The translations under genes were made by a program, and so were the position numbers. From Desulfobaculum xiamenense (GTDB lineage: Bacteria; Desulfobacterota; Desulfovibrionia; Desulfovibrionales; Desulfovibrionaceae), in contig NZ_JAATJA010000003.1 of assembly GCF_011927665.1 (NCBI RefSeq), positions 1 to 64,000 of the forward strand: a DNA stretch of 64,000 nucleotides, written 5' to 3'. The notes under the pieces are model-generated. The model was given only the letters and a program-made list of their open reading frames with translations, searched no databases and was not told where the DNA came from. Below, in pieces: positions 4,756-16,968 of the stretch (position 1 is the stretch's first letter; each line of letters opens with the position of its first letter).

Positions 4756-6915
4756 ATGAAGTCCGCCCGCTCGCTACCCGCCCTGATCATCGCCGTCGTC
4801 TGGCTCACCGTCGGTGCCGACATGGCCGTCTATCGGGCGGATATTCTCAACCAGTGGACGACTATCCAGCAAAACATCGCCGAACAGGGGGCCAGATCAA
4901 GCCGCGTGTGGCTGGAGCTGTTGGTGGAGGAGCAGGGGCTCCCCGTCAATGCCGCAGCGCACGAGACCTTCCGCAAGTTCGCCGCCCCCATCCGCCTGCT
5001 CGACTCCGGCCACGCATGGCTGTTCAGGGACAACACCCTCGTTGCCGGGCTCGATGAGACCATGCCTGCCGATTCCATCATGCGCATCGACGAACTGTGC
5101 GCCATGCGGGGATGCCCGACCGATACCGAGGGCCTCGGACTGCTTCGCGCCGCCATCGAGGGCCGCACAAGCGGACAGGGCTTCTTTACGCTGTCGACCG
5201 AACGCGGCCGGGAGCGGGCGGCATGGGCCACCTTCGACGCCGCAGGAACCACATGGACGTTCGGCATCTCCACGCCGGACAGCGAAATTCTCCTGCACAC
5301 GGCCAGTCCCTCGCGAATTCTCCCCTCGATTCTGGGCGCGCTGGCGATGACGGTTCTCGTCATCGCCCTGTTCCGCGCCAACCATCACCGCCTAGAGCTC
5401 AGCCGCAAGATGAACGACACCCTCGGCGAACTCGTCGAAAGGCGCACACGCGACCTCTCCAACGCCAATGGAGAGCTCAAGCGCCAACTCGCTCGACGGA
5501 TTCTGGCGGAACGCAGACTGCGCGAAAACCGCGAGCAGTTGAAGGCGCTCGTCGAAAACTCTCCGGACATCATCGCGCGTTTCGACCGATCCGCACGCCA
5601 CCTCTACGTCAACTCGCGCATCTCGAAATACGTGGACACCCCGCGCGAGGAAATCGTCGGCAAGACACCCCGCGAGCTCGGCCTCTGCCCGGAGTTCTGC
5701 GCAACCATTGATGCGCGCATCGAGGAAGCCTTCCGTACGAGAAGTCTGGTGCGCACCCGCCTCGTCTTTGACGGTCCGAATGGCCGCACCCACTTCGACT
5801 GGCGGCTCTCGCCGGAGTTCTCCTCCGGCGGAGTGGTGCGCACGGTGCTCAGCTTCGCGCGCGACGTCACCGCCCTGCGCCTTTCCGAAGAACGCCTACG
5901 CCGCAGCGAGGAGCAATACCGCCTGCTCGTGGAGCACCAAAGCGACATGGTCGTGAACGTCTCGCCTTCGGGACGCATCCTCTTTGCCAGCCCGTCCTTC
6001 TGCTCGCTTTTCGCCCTGCCCGAAGACCGGGTGCGCGGCTGCAAGGTCCTGAAAATCGTTCCCCGACCCGAACGCCGCGCCATCGCGGACGTATTCAGAC
6101 AGGCCATCACCGCCACCGATCCACTCTCCATAGAATTCCAGGCGAGCACCCCAGCCGGCCCGCGCTGGCTGGCCTGGACGGGTCGCGTCGTCCACGGCGC
6201 GGATGGCGAGACGAACTCCGTGGTGGCCATAGGGCGCGACGTGACCACCGCCAAGGTGTACGAAACCCGCATCCAGGAATCCCTGCTGGAAAAGGAAACC
6301 CTGCTTCAGGAAATCCACCACAGGGTCAAGAACAACCTCCAGATCGTCAGCAGTCTACTGGAGCTTGCCATGGCGCGCATCTCGTCGACGACAGACCGCG
6401 CCGTGCTCATGGACATCACCACCAAGATTCAGGGCATGGCGCTGATCCATAATCAAATATACAGCTCGGACAGCTTCGAGAGCGTGAACATCGCCGACTA
6501 TGGCCGCGCCCTGTGCCGCAACCTCGTCCGGTCCTACGGCGCACAGGACATCGCGCCACACTTCGACACCGAGGACATCCACCTGTCCATCCAGCACGCC
6601 ATTCCCTGCGGCATCGTGCTCAACGAACTGTTTTCCAACGTCATAAAGCACGCCTATCCCGACGGTCAGGGCGGTTCTCTCGGCTTCAGCGTGCGCGGCG
6701 ATGACGGCTGCGTGCGGATATGCGTCTCGGATAACGGCCGCGGTTTTCCGGACGACGCCGCAACCACGACGCTCGGCATGAAGCTGGTTTCCAACATCGT
6801 CACCTACCAGCTCCACGGCTCCCTCGATATTCGCGTGGAGGACGGAACGCGCATCGACGTCGTCTTTCCTGCGGCCGATGCCCCCGCGCGTGCATACGAT
6901 TCCGTATCGGCCTGA
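4756..6915 (+). CDS. Membrane sensor histidine kinase, two PAS domains, HisKA_2 type
   Basis: 719 aa. Transmembrane segments near residues 8-25 and 188-208 flank a periplasmic sensor region of about 160 residues. Then come a short coiled linker, PAS domains at about 262-375 and 384-497, and a HisKA_2 dimerisation motif IHHRVKNNLQIVSSLLEL with phospho-accepting His521. The ATPase domain has an N box (NELFSNVIKHAYP, 623-635) and G1 box (SDNGRGF). HisKA_2 kinases often act with unlinked response regulators, and no regulator gene is adjacent. The start is supported by GGGAG 5 nt upstream. The signal sensed is unknown. Confidence 0.9.
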   Translation: MKSARSLPALIIAVVWLTVGADMAVYRADILNQWTTIQQNIAEQGARSSRVWLELLVEEQGLPVNAAAHETFRKFAAPIRLLDSGHAWLFRDNTLVAGLDETMPADSIMRIDELCAMRGCPTDTEGLGLLRAAIEGRTSGQGFFTLSTERGRERAAWATFDAAGTTWTFGISTPDSEILLHTASPSRILPSILGALAMTVLVIALFRANHHRLELSRKMNDTLGELVERRTRDLSNANGELKRQLARRILAERRLRENREQLKALVENSPDIIARFDRSARHLYVNSRISKYVDTPREEIVGKTPRELGLCPEFCATIDARIEEAFRTRSLVRTRLVFDGPNGRTHFDWRLSPEFSSGGVVRTVLSFARDVTALRLSEERLRRSEEQYRLLVEHQSDMVVNVSPSGRILFASPSFCSLFALPEDRVRGCKVLKIVPRPERRAIADVFRQAITATDPLSIEFQASTPAGPRWLAWTGRVVHGADGETNSVVAIGRDVTTAKVYETRIQESLLEKETLLQEIHHRVKNNLQIVSSLLELAMARISSTTDRAVLMDITTKIQGMALIHNQIYSSDSFESVNIADYGRALCRNLVRSYGAQDIAPHFDTEDIHLSIQHAIPCGIVLNELFSNVIKHAYPDGQGGSLGFSVRGDDGCVRICVSDNGRGFPDDAATTTLGMKLVSNIVTYQLHGSLDIRVEDGTRIDVVFPAADAPARAYDSVSA

Positions 6916-14159: not shown

Positions 14160-14927
14160 TCACGCTTCCGGAGTCCGGGCCAGCACCAGCACCTCCACCC
14201 GCGCAGCTCCTGCGCGAAGAAGCGCCCGCGTCGCGGCTTCCAGCGTTCCGCCCGTAGTCATCACGTCATCGACGAGCAAAATGGCGCGCCCAGCGACGCA
14301 TGCGTCAGCCTCGAAGGCCCCACGAACGTTCTCGCGCCGCCGCGCGGCGGAAAGCCCGAGTTGCGGAACGGTTTCCACCCGCCGTGTCAGCGCCTGTGGC
14401 GCAAGCTCGCAGCCGGGGCGGCACACGGCGCGCGCCAGTTCGAGGCTCTGATTGTAGCCTCGATGGCGGAGCCGTCGCGGATGCAGCGGAACGGGGACTA
14501 CCAGCCATCCGCCAAAAGCGCCAGCATCATCGAGGCTCCCCGGCCAGCCATCTCGGACGCAGGCCTCCCGAACAAAACGCCCAAGCAACGCAGAGCGCCC
14601 GAGTCGCGACGAAAACTTGAACTCCAGCACCAGCCGCCTCAGCGCCCCCGCATACGCCCCATGGAAGTGAAACGCCGCCCAAGGTCTAGGCGCGCGTCTG
14701 CATGCGCCACACAGGTACACCGGGGCCTCGGCGTCGGCATAGAGCGCGCCGCACAACGGGCAGTGCCCGCCAAGCCTCGGCGCAAGTTCTCCGGCGCAGC
14801 GCGGACACAGCTCTCCCCCGCCAGAACCGAGGGCAGCGCCGCACGCCGCACATCGCGCCCACAACGTGCGCAGGGCGCGGCGCAATCCGCCAAGTCCGCC
14901 CCACGCGCACCGGCCGCTTCGCAGCAC
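14160..14927 (-). CDS. comF: ComF-family phosphoribosyltransferase-like protein
   Basis: 255 aa. An N-terminal double zinc ribbon (CAACG, CPRCAG, CPLCG, CGACRR within the first 80 residues) precedes a phosphoribosyltransferase domain with the PRPP loop LLVDDVMTTGGTLE and the conserved HPRRLRHRGYNQS. ComF proteins assist DNA uptake and recombination in competent bacteria, but are widespread and often uncharacterised elsewhere. Translation starts at GTG, sharing one base with the upstream stop (TAGTG) and with GAGG upstream, so it is coupled to the flavin reductase-like gene. Confidence 0.88.
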   Translation of the reverse strand: MLRSGRCAWGGLGGLRRALRTLWARCAACGAALGSGGGELCPRCAGELAPRLGGHCPLCGALYADAEAPVYLCGACRRAPRPWAAFHFHGAYAGALRRLVLEFKFSSRLGRSALLGRFVREACVRDGWPGSLDDAGAFGGWLVVPVPLHPRRLRHRGYNQSLELARAVCRPGCELAPQALTRRVETVPQLGLSAARRRENVRGAFEADACVAGRAILLVDDVMTTGGTLEAATRALLRAGAARVEVLVLARTPEA

Positions 14928-15565
14928 TAGGCCTCGGCGCGTTCAAGCGCCTCGCGGGCGGCCTCGCGGCCAAGGTTCTCCAGCGCGGCCACGGCCTCGG
15001 CGTTGGCTTCGAGATCACCGGCCTCGTCCAGCCCCCGGAACAGGAGTGGCGGCTGCAACTCGAAGTTGAACACATCGAGGAAGTACTTGAGCGTAAGCAG
15101 ACTTCCCTCGAAAAGCTTATCCCCCTGCGAGCGTCCGGCAATGAGGCAGACATAGGCCTTGCGCCGAGGCAGGGCGGCCATGACGGGGTCGCCGTCCTGC
15201 CTGCGCATATAGTAGCACTGGCTGCGGTCGATCCACGCCTTGAGTTGCGCCGGGACGTGATAGAAGTAGATGGGCGAGGCGAGGAAGACATAGGGCGCAT
15301 TCAGCATCATCTGAAACAGACGCCCGCTGTGGTCCATGTCGGCCAGATAGCACGCCCGCTTGGGGTCATGCTTGCAACGGTAGCAGGACACGCACGGCTC
15401 CACGCGGAACCGACGCAGATAGTCAACCCGCAGCTCAAGACCCGCCGCCATCGCCCCATGCGTGAAGAGGGCCGCGGCGCGGTCGCTGTTTCCACCGGGT
15501 CGGGGGCTGCACGAAATGATGGCCGGACGGCCAGCCTCCCCTGCCCTGTCATTCGATTGAATCAT
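14927..15565 (-). CDS. NADPH-dependent FMN reductase-like flavoprotein with Cys-rich motif
   Basis: 212 aa, flavodoxin-like fold. The phosphate loop is SCSPRPGGNSDRAA, and ASPIYFYHVPAQLKAWIDR is the conserved flavin-binding segment of the iron-sulfur flavoprotein/FMN reductase family. CVSCYRCKHDPKRAC (about residues 58-72) has the spacing of family members that bind a cluster or use thiols. The ATG at 15565 lies 6 nt after AGAGGA; an ATG six bases earlier abuts it. The first 17 bases overlap the end of the TusA-like gene, which implies coupling. Electron donor and acceptor are unknown. Confidence 0.85.
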   Translation of the reverse strand: MIQSNDRAGEAGRPAIISCSPRPGGNSDRAAALFTHGAMAAGLELRVDYLRRFRVEPCVSCYRCKHDPKRACYLADMDHSGRLFQMMLNAPYVFLASPIYFYHVPAQLKAWIDRSQCYYMRRQDGDPVMAALPRRKAYVCLIAGRSQGDKLFEGSLLTLKYFLDVFNFELQPPLLFRGLDEAGDLEANAEAVAALENLGREAAREALERAEA

Positions 15566-15806
15566 TACCATTCCTCTTTGCGTGTACGAATACGACGCGA
15601 ACATGTTCGCCGTCCTCGGACACATTCATCCGCCAGACGTCGTTCATGCGGCGCTGGTCCTCAAGGGAGGCGAGCGCCCCGCTCTGGACCAGAACCTCGA
15701 TCACCGAGGCGCGAGACAGGCGAAGGTACCACCCCACCTCAAGTCCCACGCCTCAGCACTTGTCGCGCAGATCGAGAAAAATCCGATTCCCCTGTCCTTC
15801 CTGCAT
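15549..15806 (-). CDS. TusA-like selenoprotein with in-frame TGA (Sec) at codon 18
   Basis: 85 aa if TGA at 15753-15755 is read as selenocysteine. The ATG at 15806 lies 2 nt after the upstream MBL stop and has GAGG 8 nt before it. The frame runs 17 codons (ending LDLRDKC), then TGA, then 67 codons to a true TGA at 15549. The product aligns along its length with TusA (81 aa in E. coli): LDxxGLxC matches LDLRDKCU, so Sec falls on the catalytic Cys19 position. SVIEVLV and EDGEHVRVVFV match later TusA strands. TusA relays persulfide sulfur; a Sec form could handle sulfur, selenium or redox chemistry (inference). Alternatives: a nonsense-mutated pseudogene, or a shorter protein from the GTG at 15749. 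Keeping both flanking overlaps and the TusA pattern on both sides of the TGA argues for recoding. Confidence 0.72.
15718..15755 (-). promoter_or_regulatory. Candidate bacterial SECIS hairpin at the TGA codon
   Basis: Immediately after the TGA the minus strand can form GAGGT/ACCTT (15736-15740 with 15723-15727) closing an 8-nt loop GGGGTGGT, and an outer AGGCG/CGCCT (15749-15753 with 15718-15722), with an 8-nt bulge on the 5' side. TGA-to-loop distance is 17 nt and the loop begins with G, both within the range reported for bacterial SECIS elements. Stems of this size also arise by chance in GC-rich DNA. Confidence 0.45.
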
Positions 15807-15808
15807 GG

Positions 15809-16447
15809 CTAGTACCTCATGCCCGGTCCGTCGGGCTGAAAGAAGGGGTTGTGCACCATCTCGTCCCCCACCGTGGTGGCCGGACCGTGCCCGGAATAGA
15901 GCACCGTCTCCGGCGGCAGGGTGAAGATGCGCCGCTCCACCGACCGAACGAGGGTCGGCATGCTCCCGCCGGGAAAATCCGTGCGCCCGACGGCTCGCGA
16001 AAAGATGAGATCGCCCACGAAGGCCGCACCGGCCTCGGGGAAATGAAAGGTCAGACTGCCGCGCGTGTGTCCGGGCGTGGCCAGCACATTGCAGCGCTGG
16101 CCGATGAATTCGGTCTCGCCCTCGGTCAGCGGCTCGAAGGCGAAATCGTCCACGCGGGGGAAGCCCATGGCTCCGCCGCGCCCCACCTCCGTTTCCAGCA
16201 GGTAGGCATCATCGGCGCTGGCGCACACGGACGCACCCGTGGCCGCCGAAAGGGCCGCCACTCCATAAATATGGTCGAAATGCAGATGCGTGACCAGCAC
16301 CCGCTCCAACACGAGGCCCTCGGCCTTGAGGACCGCGAGCACCTCGTCGGGCTCGCCGCCGGGATCGACGAACAGAGCGCGCCCACCCTCGGAGAGCAGA
16401 TAGCCGTTGGTCATGAGCGGGCCAAGCTCGAAGGTCCGAATCAGCAT
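15809..16447 (-). CDS. MBL-fold metallo-hydrolase, glyoxalase II-like
   Basis: 212 aa. The metal-binding motif THLHFDH (H54, H56, D58, H59) and later ligands in ATPGHTRGS, GDLIF and SGHGPATT are all present, which indicates an active two-metal site. The small single-domain form resembles YcbL/GloB-like thioesterases; persulfide dioxygenases share the fold but I see no feature specific to them. The ATG shares one base with the nitroreductase stop (TGATG), and its own TAG is 2 nt before the TusA-like ATG. It is the second gene of a tightly coupled operon. Confidence 0.88.
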   Translation of the reverse strand: MLIRTFELGPLMTNGYLLSEGGRALFVDPGGEPDEVLAVLKAEGLVLERVLVTHLHFDHIYGVAALSAATGASVCASADDAYLLETEVGRGGAMGFPRVDDFAFEPLTEGETEFIGQRCNVLATPGHTRGSLTFHFPEAGAAFVGDLIFSRAVGRTDFPGGSMPTLVRSVERRIFTLPPETVLYSGHGPATTVGDEMVHNPFFQPDGPGMRY

Positions 16448-16968
16448 CAGAACGCCTCCAACAGCAGCGTTTCCAGCGGCTGGCGCGAACTCGCGCCCGG
16501 ATGTGCCGGATGGCCAATGGCGAGAAAGGCCATCAGCTCGTAGCGCTCCCCAGACAGGGACAGCGCGTCGAGCACCTGATCCGCCTGATTGACGATCTCG
16601 CCCAGCCACACGCCGCCAAGTCCGATGGAATGCGTGGCCAGCAGCATGTTTTGGATGCAGGCCCCTGCGGTCTGATGATCCTTCAGCGGAGAATACATGG
16701 CGTCGCGATCGAGAAACACGCCCACCAGCAGCCCGCAGGCCTCGACGACGGCCCCGTACTTCGTACACCCGGCCAGCGCATGGACGCGCGCATCACCGGG
16801 CCACAGGCACAGAAAGCGCCACGGCTGGTTGTTGAGACCACTCGGCGCGAAGCGCCCCGCCTCGACGATGGTCAGCGCATCTTCACGCGTCACAGGCTCG
16901 CCCGTAAAGCGGCGCACACTACGGCGCTCGCGGATGGCCTGCAGCACAACGTTGTCCCTCTCAGTCAT
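16447..16968 (-). CDS. Nitroreductase-family flavoprotein
   Basis: 173 aa. An FMN-binding start, AIRERRSVRRFTGEPV, is followed by APSGLNNQPWRFL and the C-terminal ELMAFLAIGHPA, the three usual signatures of NAD(P)H:FMN nitroreductase-fold proteins. The natural substrate is unknown. The ATG at 16968 has GGAGG at ideal spacing; longer open frame upstream has no start support. It is the first gene of the operon running to comF. No clear promoter could be placed in the 459-bp spacer. Confidence 0.88.
   Translation of the reverse strand: MTERDNVVLQAIRERRSVRRFTGEPVTREDALTIVEAGRFAPSGLNNQPWRFLCLWPGDARVHALAGCTKYGAVVEACGLLVGVFLDRDAMYSPLKDHQTAGACIQNMLLATHSIGLGGVWLGEIVNQADQVLDALSLSGERYELMAFLAIGHPAHPGASSRQPLETLLLEAF

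Follow-up and report, generated by a model that had tools for sequence, protein, structure and literature searches.

The minus strand of the DNA analysed here (the window: 64,000 nucleotides of Desulfobaculum xiamenense, positions 1 to 64,000 of contig NZ_JAATJA010000003.1) very probably encodes a TusA-like selenoprotein. The probability of this reading is put at about 0.92, a figure that applies to the identity of the gene and not to its specific role. An earlier note on this DNA had proposed a selenoprotein, and the proposal is supported by four lines of evidence. The in-frame UGA is conserved among relatives, a SECIS-like hairpin begins at it, the genome has selA, selB, selC and selD, and a related family has Cys at the exact position of the selenocysteine (Sec).

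The gene and its in-frame UGA

The gene (15549..15806, minus strand), recognized from its relatives and its predicted fold, begins with an ATG at 15806 and ends with a TGA at 15551-15549, this stop included in the span. Its product has 85 residues with Sec at residue 18. The UGA read as Sec is codon 18 (15753..15755, minus strand; TGA at 15755-15753) and directly follows the codon for Cys17. Upstream, the stop codon of a gene for an MBL-fold hydrolase (TAG, 15811-15809) is separated from the ATG by 2 nt. A GAGG inside the 3' end of that gene (15815..15818, minus strand) is a putative ribosome-binding site, judged by its position. At the other end, the Sec gene overlaps the start of a flavoprotein gene (ATG at 15565) by 17 nt. 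The earlier note had described just this arrangement, and the 85-residue frame through the TGA, its coordinates, the 2-nt gap, the GAGG and the 17-nt overlap all agree with the sequence. It had also held that plain ORF calling yields only a 66-aa fragment from a GTG. That is indeed the only ORF listed here (15749-15549).

The reading needs a genome that can decode Sec. The note had pointed to selA, selB, selC and selD as a check, and a search of the genome (3.64 Mb, 8 contigs) found all four. selC (tRNA-Sec) scores 80.5 bits, selB 394, selA 599 and selD 337, all above the curated cut-offs.

Conservation and spread of the UGA

Relatives were sought in 199 genomes of the window's family with a query in which C was written for Sec (E <= 0.01). 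Matches were found in 109 of the 199, with a TGA inside in 108 of the 112 match rows and no stop in the other four. An order-level search matched 91 of 150 genomes, 88 of these with a TGA inside. A script parsed 64 loci into 55 UGA orthologs, one ortholog with Pro (L090), six members of the Cys family, one spurious locus and one empty one. The UGA therefore lies at the same codon in 55 of 56 orthologs, L090 being the exception. A few of the 55 UGA loci come from the same contig or have the same 51-nt sequence, leaving 52 distinct. L106 (E 0.022) and L095 (no match) were left out as non-members; L107 (G240) carries the Sec gene.

Random stops or frameshifts in relatives had been named beforehand as grounds for giving up the reading. 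They were looked for and the reading stood. None of 63 matches from relatives has a TAA or TAG within the first 30 codons. Terminal stops are mixed among 53 distinct UGA-bearing sequences, which had been selected for their UGA (TGA 34, TAG 12, TAA 7). The residues around the UGA are also kept. In a first alignment of 29 sequences D12, R14, C17, Sec18, G19, G21, E23, G25, W26, Y27, L28, R29 and W58 are invariant, and in 47 more diverse sequences, again selected for UGA, only D12, Sec18 and L28 are. Cys-Sec-Gly is present in 51 of the 56 orthologs. The dN/dS ratio, taken from 63 non-independent pairs, is about 0.30 in the part before the UGA and 0.22 in the part that follows (0.29 in the stretch past the hairpin); both flanks of the UGA are under purifying selection.

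Two orthologs depart from the rule in different ways. In L129 Cys17 is replaced by Gly while the UGA and the hairpin are kept, and Sec may matter more than the Cys that precedes it. In L090 (G252, minus strand, about base 6430 of the reverse complement) Cys-Pro-Cys stands where the congener L102 has Cys-Sec-Gly. The L090 gene adjoins an MBL gene, and its 51 nt fold at -13.3 kcal/mol versus -22.4 kcal/mol for L102. This is a possible natural case of Sec loss. A variation of another kind is seen at the C terminus of L049, L055, L057, L061, L062 and L126 (Nitratidesulfovibrio or Desulfovibrio where named), which have a tail rich in Gly, Pro and His with HTGGHGKE or the like as its last residues.

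How far does the gene spread? An alignment scan of an 84,980-species collection with one narrow pattern returned 24 loci, labelled Solidesulfovibrio, Nitratidesulfovibrio, Pseudodesulfovibrio, Desulfovibrio or Desulfovibrionaceae, with one 'Proteobacteria bacterium'. A single-protein scan of genome contigs returned no match, compared with these 24, and tblastn against plasmids returned none either. Searches at the phylum level found matches in 5 of 297 genomes and in 7 of 395. Apart from one weak partial match in each, these genomes belong to the same family. In G405 (E 0.008) and in G318 (E 0.0038), both outside the order, the match spans only part of the model and has no stop inside; these two were taken as chance. 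Divergent members do escape the profile, as G208 was not matched in the order search and yet has a UGA member (L193).

A SECIS-type hairpin at the UGA

A SECIS-type hairpin starts at the UGA (15704..15755, minus strand), as judged from the minimum free energy in the window and from stem pairing in 53 sequences. The family's upper stem-loop falls at 15722..15741 (minus strand), which is positions 15-34 from the UGA with the loop at 22-27. In the window, the 52 nt that start with the UGA have a folding energy of -32.7 kcal/mol (z -5.6), and none of 200 dinucleotide shuffles did as well. The family tells the same story. Across 53 distinct 51-nt windows (alignment A5), positions 15-21 and 28-34 are paired in 95.1% of cells, whereas a shifted partner gives only 38-67%. 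The stem has 25 double-change cells, and none of 500 shuffles scored as high. Pair 19/30 is G-C in 25 sequences, A-U in 19 and G-U in nine, with no mismatch.

Another clue comes from the codons that make up the stem. Rare ones are common in it, with ATA for 17 of 19 Ile and GTA for 22 of 31 Val. In reference genes (those for MBL, flavoprotein and nitroreductase, where a locus has them) the same codons make up 14.9% and 11.8%. In the stem GTA is mostly paired with TAC and ATA with TAT. The covarying pairs and the rare codons are not explained by the protein alone, and by these computed patterns the hairpin is under selection. Of the 53 sequences, 51 have a better fold than their synonymous shuffles have on average (mean z -1.7). 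The z value is below -2 in 21 of 53 and -3.6 in the window; two of the 53 fold no better than their own shuffles.

The loop has features of its own. G23 is invariant, and GGU or AGU occupies positions 22-24 in 40 of the 53 sequences. In E. coli fdhF a GGU stands at the same spot (the letters were matched to fdhF and the position was counted by hand). The window lies outside those 40. Its loop is GGGUGG, with GGG at 22-24, and its best fold moves the stem by a few bases. The consensus fold has five pairs only and the lower stem is absent. A SECIS hairpin whose apical loop contains G/U is present immediately downstream of the UGA, and a match to an Rfam family is absent. A scan of 15640-15800 gave no SECIS family, only chance matches far under the gathering scores.

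What if the TGA were simply an ordinary stop, or the gene a decaying one? The plain ORF list does end or start at this codon. This explanation would nevertheless have to account for the UGA that 55 of 56 orthologs share, the conservation of the two flanks, covariation in the SECIS stem and the Cys homologs described below, and it has almost no probability left.

Fold and relation to TusA/SirA

The earlier note had called the protein TusA-like with Sec at the position of the catalytic Cys. The predicted fold and an intermediate Cys family uphold this, but direct sequence homology does not. The AlphaFold model (pLDDT 82, pTM 0.67) has the order beta-alpha-beta-alpha-beta-beta. The best VIA-align row is SirA-like 3hz7 (Z 9.8, rmsd 1.9, 69 aligned), followed by YeeD/TsuB (9.6 and 9.2), TusA (3lvj 8.5, 3lvk 8.4) and 1dcj (8.0; YhhP, named TusA). 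The six best rows are thus all SirA, TusA or TsuB (Z 8.0-9.8), with an Smr domain tying at 8.0. Foldseek on its own gave no match at E <= 0.001 and put weak, mixed folds on top.

Sequence comparisons were less favourable. Pfam TusA (PF01206) matched none of 29 members at E <= 1 and none of 47 at E <= 0.1. An NCBIfam scan gave no TusA, its best E of 0.077 belonging to a methyltransferase model. Sequence searches of the PDB found no TusA homology, and PHROGs gave no match for two proteins. A direct profile comparison with TusA reached just 29% over 36 columns, so direct homology was rejected as the basis for the assignment; the link needed the fold and the Cys family.

Taken as a model-based result, a TusA/SirA-like fold with Sec at the position of the TusA catalytic Cys (Cys19) is supported. 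The register of Sec on Cys19 comes from the Cys-family profile and the Asp+6 spacing, without residue-level superposition. The likeness to TusA/SirA (PF01206; E. coli TusA, YeeD/TsuB and the N-terminal domain of YedF) lies in the fold and in an Asp six residues ahead of the active chalcogen. The differences are Sec for Cys, Cys-Sec-Gly for the CPxP motif, which is absent from the Sec family, and a conserved E-x-G-W-Y-L-R afterwards.

YedF/SirA-like proteins (TIGR03527) share a TusA-type N-terminal domain and a tie to selenium. They differ in that YedF, as described in PMC5322559, has Cys in a CPxP motif and also a DsrE domain; this genome encodes it in a gene of its own (L063). TGA-bearing matches to the YedF model (in G201, G202, G207, G215, G219 and others) were considered as Sec-containing TusA proteins and rejected, since the ten loci that were read are ordinary CPQP TusA genes with terminal stops.

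A related family with Cys in place of Sec

A second family, found in the same taxonomic order, lacks the UGA. At the position aligned with Sec, 30 of 30 of its sequences (taken from 30 genomes) have Cys, and the next residue is Gly or Asn. Some genomes have both families (e.g., G029 and G097). This unnamed family (alignment A6, e.g. L164:3045-3302) is homologous to the Sec family over most of its length. The Sec profile (A2) and the Cys profile (A6) match at 98.5% (E 2.6e-15, 77 columns) with Cys under Sec. In turn, the Cys-family profiles match the TusA profile at 61-77% (E 8e-5 to 2e-5) with Cys under Cys. Pfam TusA matched none of the six Cys-family members scanned, and a profile search of the PDB with the family gave 0 matches. 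The Cys-family model (pLDDT 79) finds the same structural neighbours with Z up to 7.8 and an Smr domain at 7.6, values that a merely common arrangement could also produce.

Apart from the missing UGA, the Cys family differs from the Sec family in its Cys-Gly-x-x-Pro motif and in its place next to mnmE. The mnmE gene is directly upstream in 15 of 20 long loci (L162-L181; Pfam on L164). It is absent from the other 17 of 37 loci scanned, made up of ten short ones (L152-L161) and L091-L097. In L092, hypF lies near the Cys-family gene. MnmE acts on the same uridine as the Tus system. PMC11097638 assigns the 2-thiouridine of mnm5s2U tRNA to the Tus system and reports that tusAD transcripts go up on selenium depletion in Methanococcus. 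The Cys family is a candidate for carrying sulfur to the wobble modification of tRNA.

Place among known selenoproteins

The earlier note had referred to SirA/TusA-like selenoproteins in bacterial surveys. This did not hold up. The surveys consulted name no selenoprotein of SirA/TusA type, and the SirA-like protein in them is the Cys-containing YedF, with which PMC2432076, PMC5322559 and PMC4607533 are concerned. A 2026 inventory lists 119 prokaryotic selenoprotein families (PMC13188914, Table 1). Its Table 1 has no fitting entry, those entries known only from CDD or PANTHER having been compared by name and motif alone, and a term search of its main text found none of SirA, TusA, YedF and Desulfovibrio. 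No listed selenoprotein family was matched across that table, NCBIfam 20 and Pfam. In the text of a 2022 review (PMC9312934) no selenoprotein fits, with 0 occurrences of SirA and TusA, and a literature search for TusA or SirA with selenocysteine found no such selenoprotein in open-licence papers.

Adjacent Cys and Sec are not peculiar to this family. HgcA, SaoC, SaoL, MbdU, KCU-star and others in the inventory have a Cys-Sec motif as well (PMC13188914). By their listed models these are separate families, and NCBIfam and Pfam scans of A1 and A2 members match none of them.

The gene is present in over half of the sampled Desulfovibrio-type sulfate reducers (108 of 199 genomes in the family and 88 of 150 in the order, with TGA) and missing from the 2026 inventory, Pfam and NCBIfam. 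If the reading is right, TusA/SirA joins the Sec-carrying folds of that inventory (PMC13188914). How might it have been overlooked? deep-Sep may by its own statement miss selenoproteins without Cys homologs, and on Desulfomicrobium orale (2,783,374 nt) it reported six known and 0 new selenoproteins (PMC12013277). The present case suggests that selenoprotein finders which demand a Cys homolog can overlook families whose Cys relatives are distant.

Neighbouring genes

Three genes on the minus strand surround the Sec gene in the window. The first gene of the conserved cluster encodes an FMN protein of the nitroreductase family (16447..16968; PF00881, E 2.3e-24; PDB 3e39, E 5e-55). It is followed by the upstream neighbour, the MBL-fold hydrolase of GloB/YcbL type (15809..16447; PF00753, E 7e-28; PDB 7ev5, 2zwr, 7l0b and 2xf4). 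The HxHxDH motif of the hydrolase is kept in 42 of 43 sequences. C119, eight residues ahead of a conserved His, is kept in 41 of 43 relatives and might be a partner thiol. The downstream neighbour is a flavodoxin-fold FMN protein (14927..15565; PF03358, E 1.5e-13) with a C-x2-C-x2-C-x7-C motif (C58 to C72, codons at 15350..15394). All four cysteines (C58, C61, C64 and C72) are present in 44 of 44 sequences, the window included, in the compact pattern of iron-sulfur flavoproteins.

The earlier note had placed the gene between the MBL and flavoprotein genes. This is the usual context, but a variable one. Among the 55 loci the flavoprotein is downstream in 44 and the MBL gene upstream in 43, and 38 of these 43 MBL genes end no more than 202 nt from the UGA. 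In 11 of the 55 none of the three neighbours was found nearby; some of these stretches are short and five of the 11 are labelled Solidesulfovibrio. Sixteen further flavoprotein loci comprise 12 in which MBL and flavoprotein genes are directly adjacent, three without MBL there and one with the Sec gene. Because the nitroreductase, MBL and flavoprotein genes occur together without the Sec gene, they form a unit of their own into which the Sec gene was inserted or from which it was lost. Co-occurrence with the flavoprotein across genomes was rejected as a sign of a functional link; it is uninformative, since a flavoprotein match occurs in 145 of 150 genomes.

The overlap with the flavoprotein raises one more scenario. 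Perhaps the gene is mainly a selenium sensor, a regulatory switch in which the supply of Sec gates the passage of ribosomes to the overlapping flavoprotein start. The 17-nt overlap in the window would suit this. However, the protein downstream of the UGA is conserved and the gene is also found away from the flavoprotein, which makes a switch highly improbable.

Possible role of the selenoprotein

The protein may be a persulfide reductase or a redox-active carrier of sulfur, a role suggested here tentatively and at less than even odds. The hints taken for it are the Cys motif of the flavoprotein, the gene cluster and the position of the Cys family beside mnmE. A more specific version is possible but doubtful. 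It is a selenium-based sulfur carrier that would hold sulfane sulfur on Sec and release it reductively through the Cys-Sec pair and a dedicated iron-sulfur flavoprotein.

SelB and tRNA-Sec very probably decode the UGA at codon 18, aided by the hairpin that begins there. The product is then an 85-residue protein of TusA/SirA-like fold with Lys-Cys-Sec-Gly, in which Sec takes the place of the catalytic Cys. In the suggested role, the selenolate, which sits where helix 1 begins and where TusA bears its persulfide, would accept sulfane sulfur (persulfide, polysulfide or thiosulfate-derived). Cys17 would then resolve this by forming a Se-S bond, sulfide would be set free, and the flavoprotein of iron-sulfur type encoded next door would reduce the Se-S pair. 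Such a Cys17-Sec relay is not universal, because L129 has Gly for Cys17. The gene thereby connects selenium with sulfur trafficking in a way that can be tested. If the selenium-based carrier is real, sulfate reducers would put selenium to a new use in their sulfur metabolism, with a protein related to a Cys carrier that is associated with the modification of tRNA.

A Cys-Sec pair with flavin neighbours could also serve defence against peroxide or oxygen, with the pair reducing peroxides or mending oxidised thiols and the flavoprotein feeding it. Iron-sulfur flavoproteins of methanogens reduce O2 and H2O2, and this was counted for defence. Two observations do not fit. The predicted fold is nearest to TusA/SirA, with no thioredoxin or peroxiredoxin among the VIA-align rows shown, and mnmE comes just before the Cys-family gene in 15 of 20 long loci, which points to sulfur transfer. 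A defence role is therefore unlikely.

The sulfur-carrier reading must also be set beside a selenium carrier, which would pass selenide or perselenide on to SelD or to different acceptors. The TusA-type fold is compatible with this, and YedF and SirA-like proteins have been tied to selD (PMC2432076, PMC5322559). On the other hand, selD is on another contig (C5) in this genome, and Sec synthesis goes on independently of the gene. SelB is over the curated cut-off in 167 of 199 family genomes versus 108 with the gene, and several SelB-positive genomes are without it (e.g., G113, G153, G175, G182 and G195). The figure of 196 of 199 for SelB at a loose E-value takes in other GTPases (controls match in 14 of 14). 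A selenium carrier is accordingly distinctly unlikely. Loss of SelB was also considered as the reason for absence of the gene and rejected; because SelB is present in genomes without the gene, absence is not simply a matter of lost Sec decoding. The selD gene itself (G000:C5:132442-133365, L132) holds one in-frame TGA, and SelD may be a selenoprotein in this genome as well.
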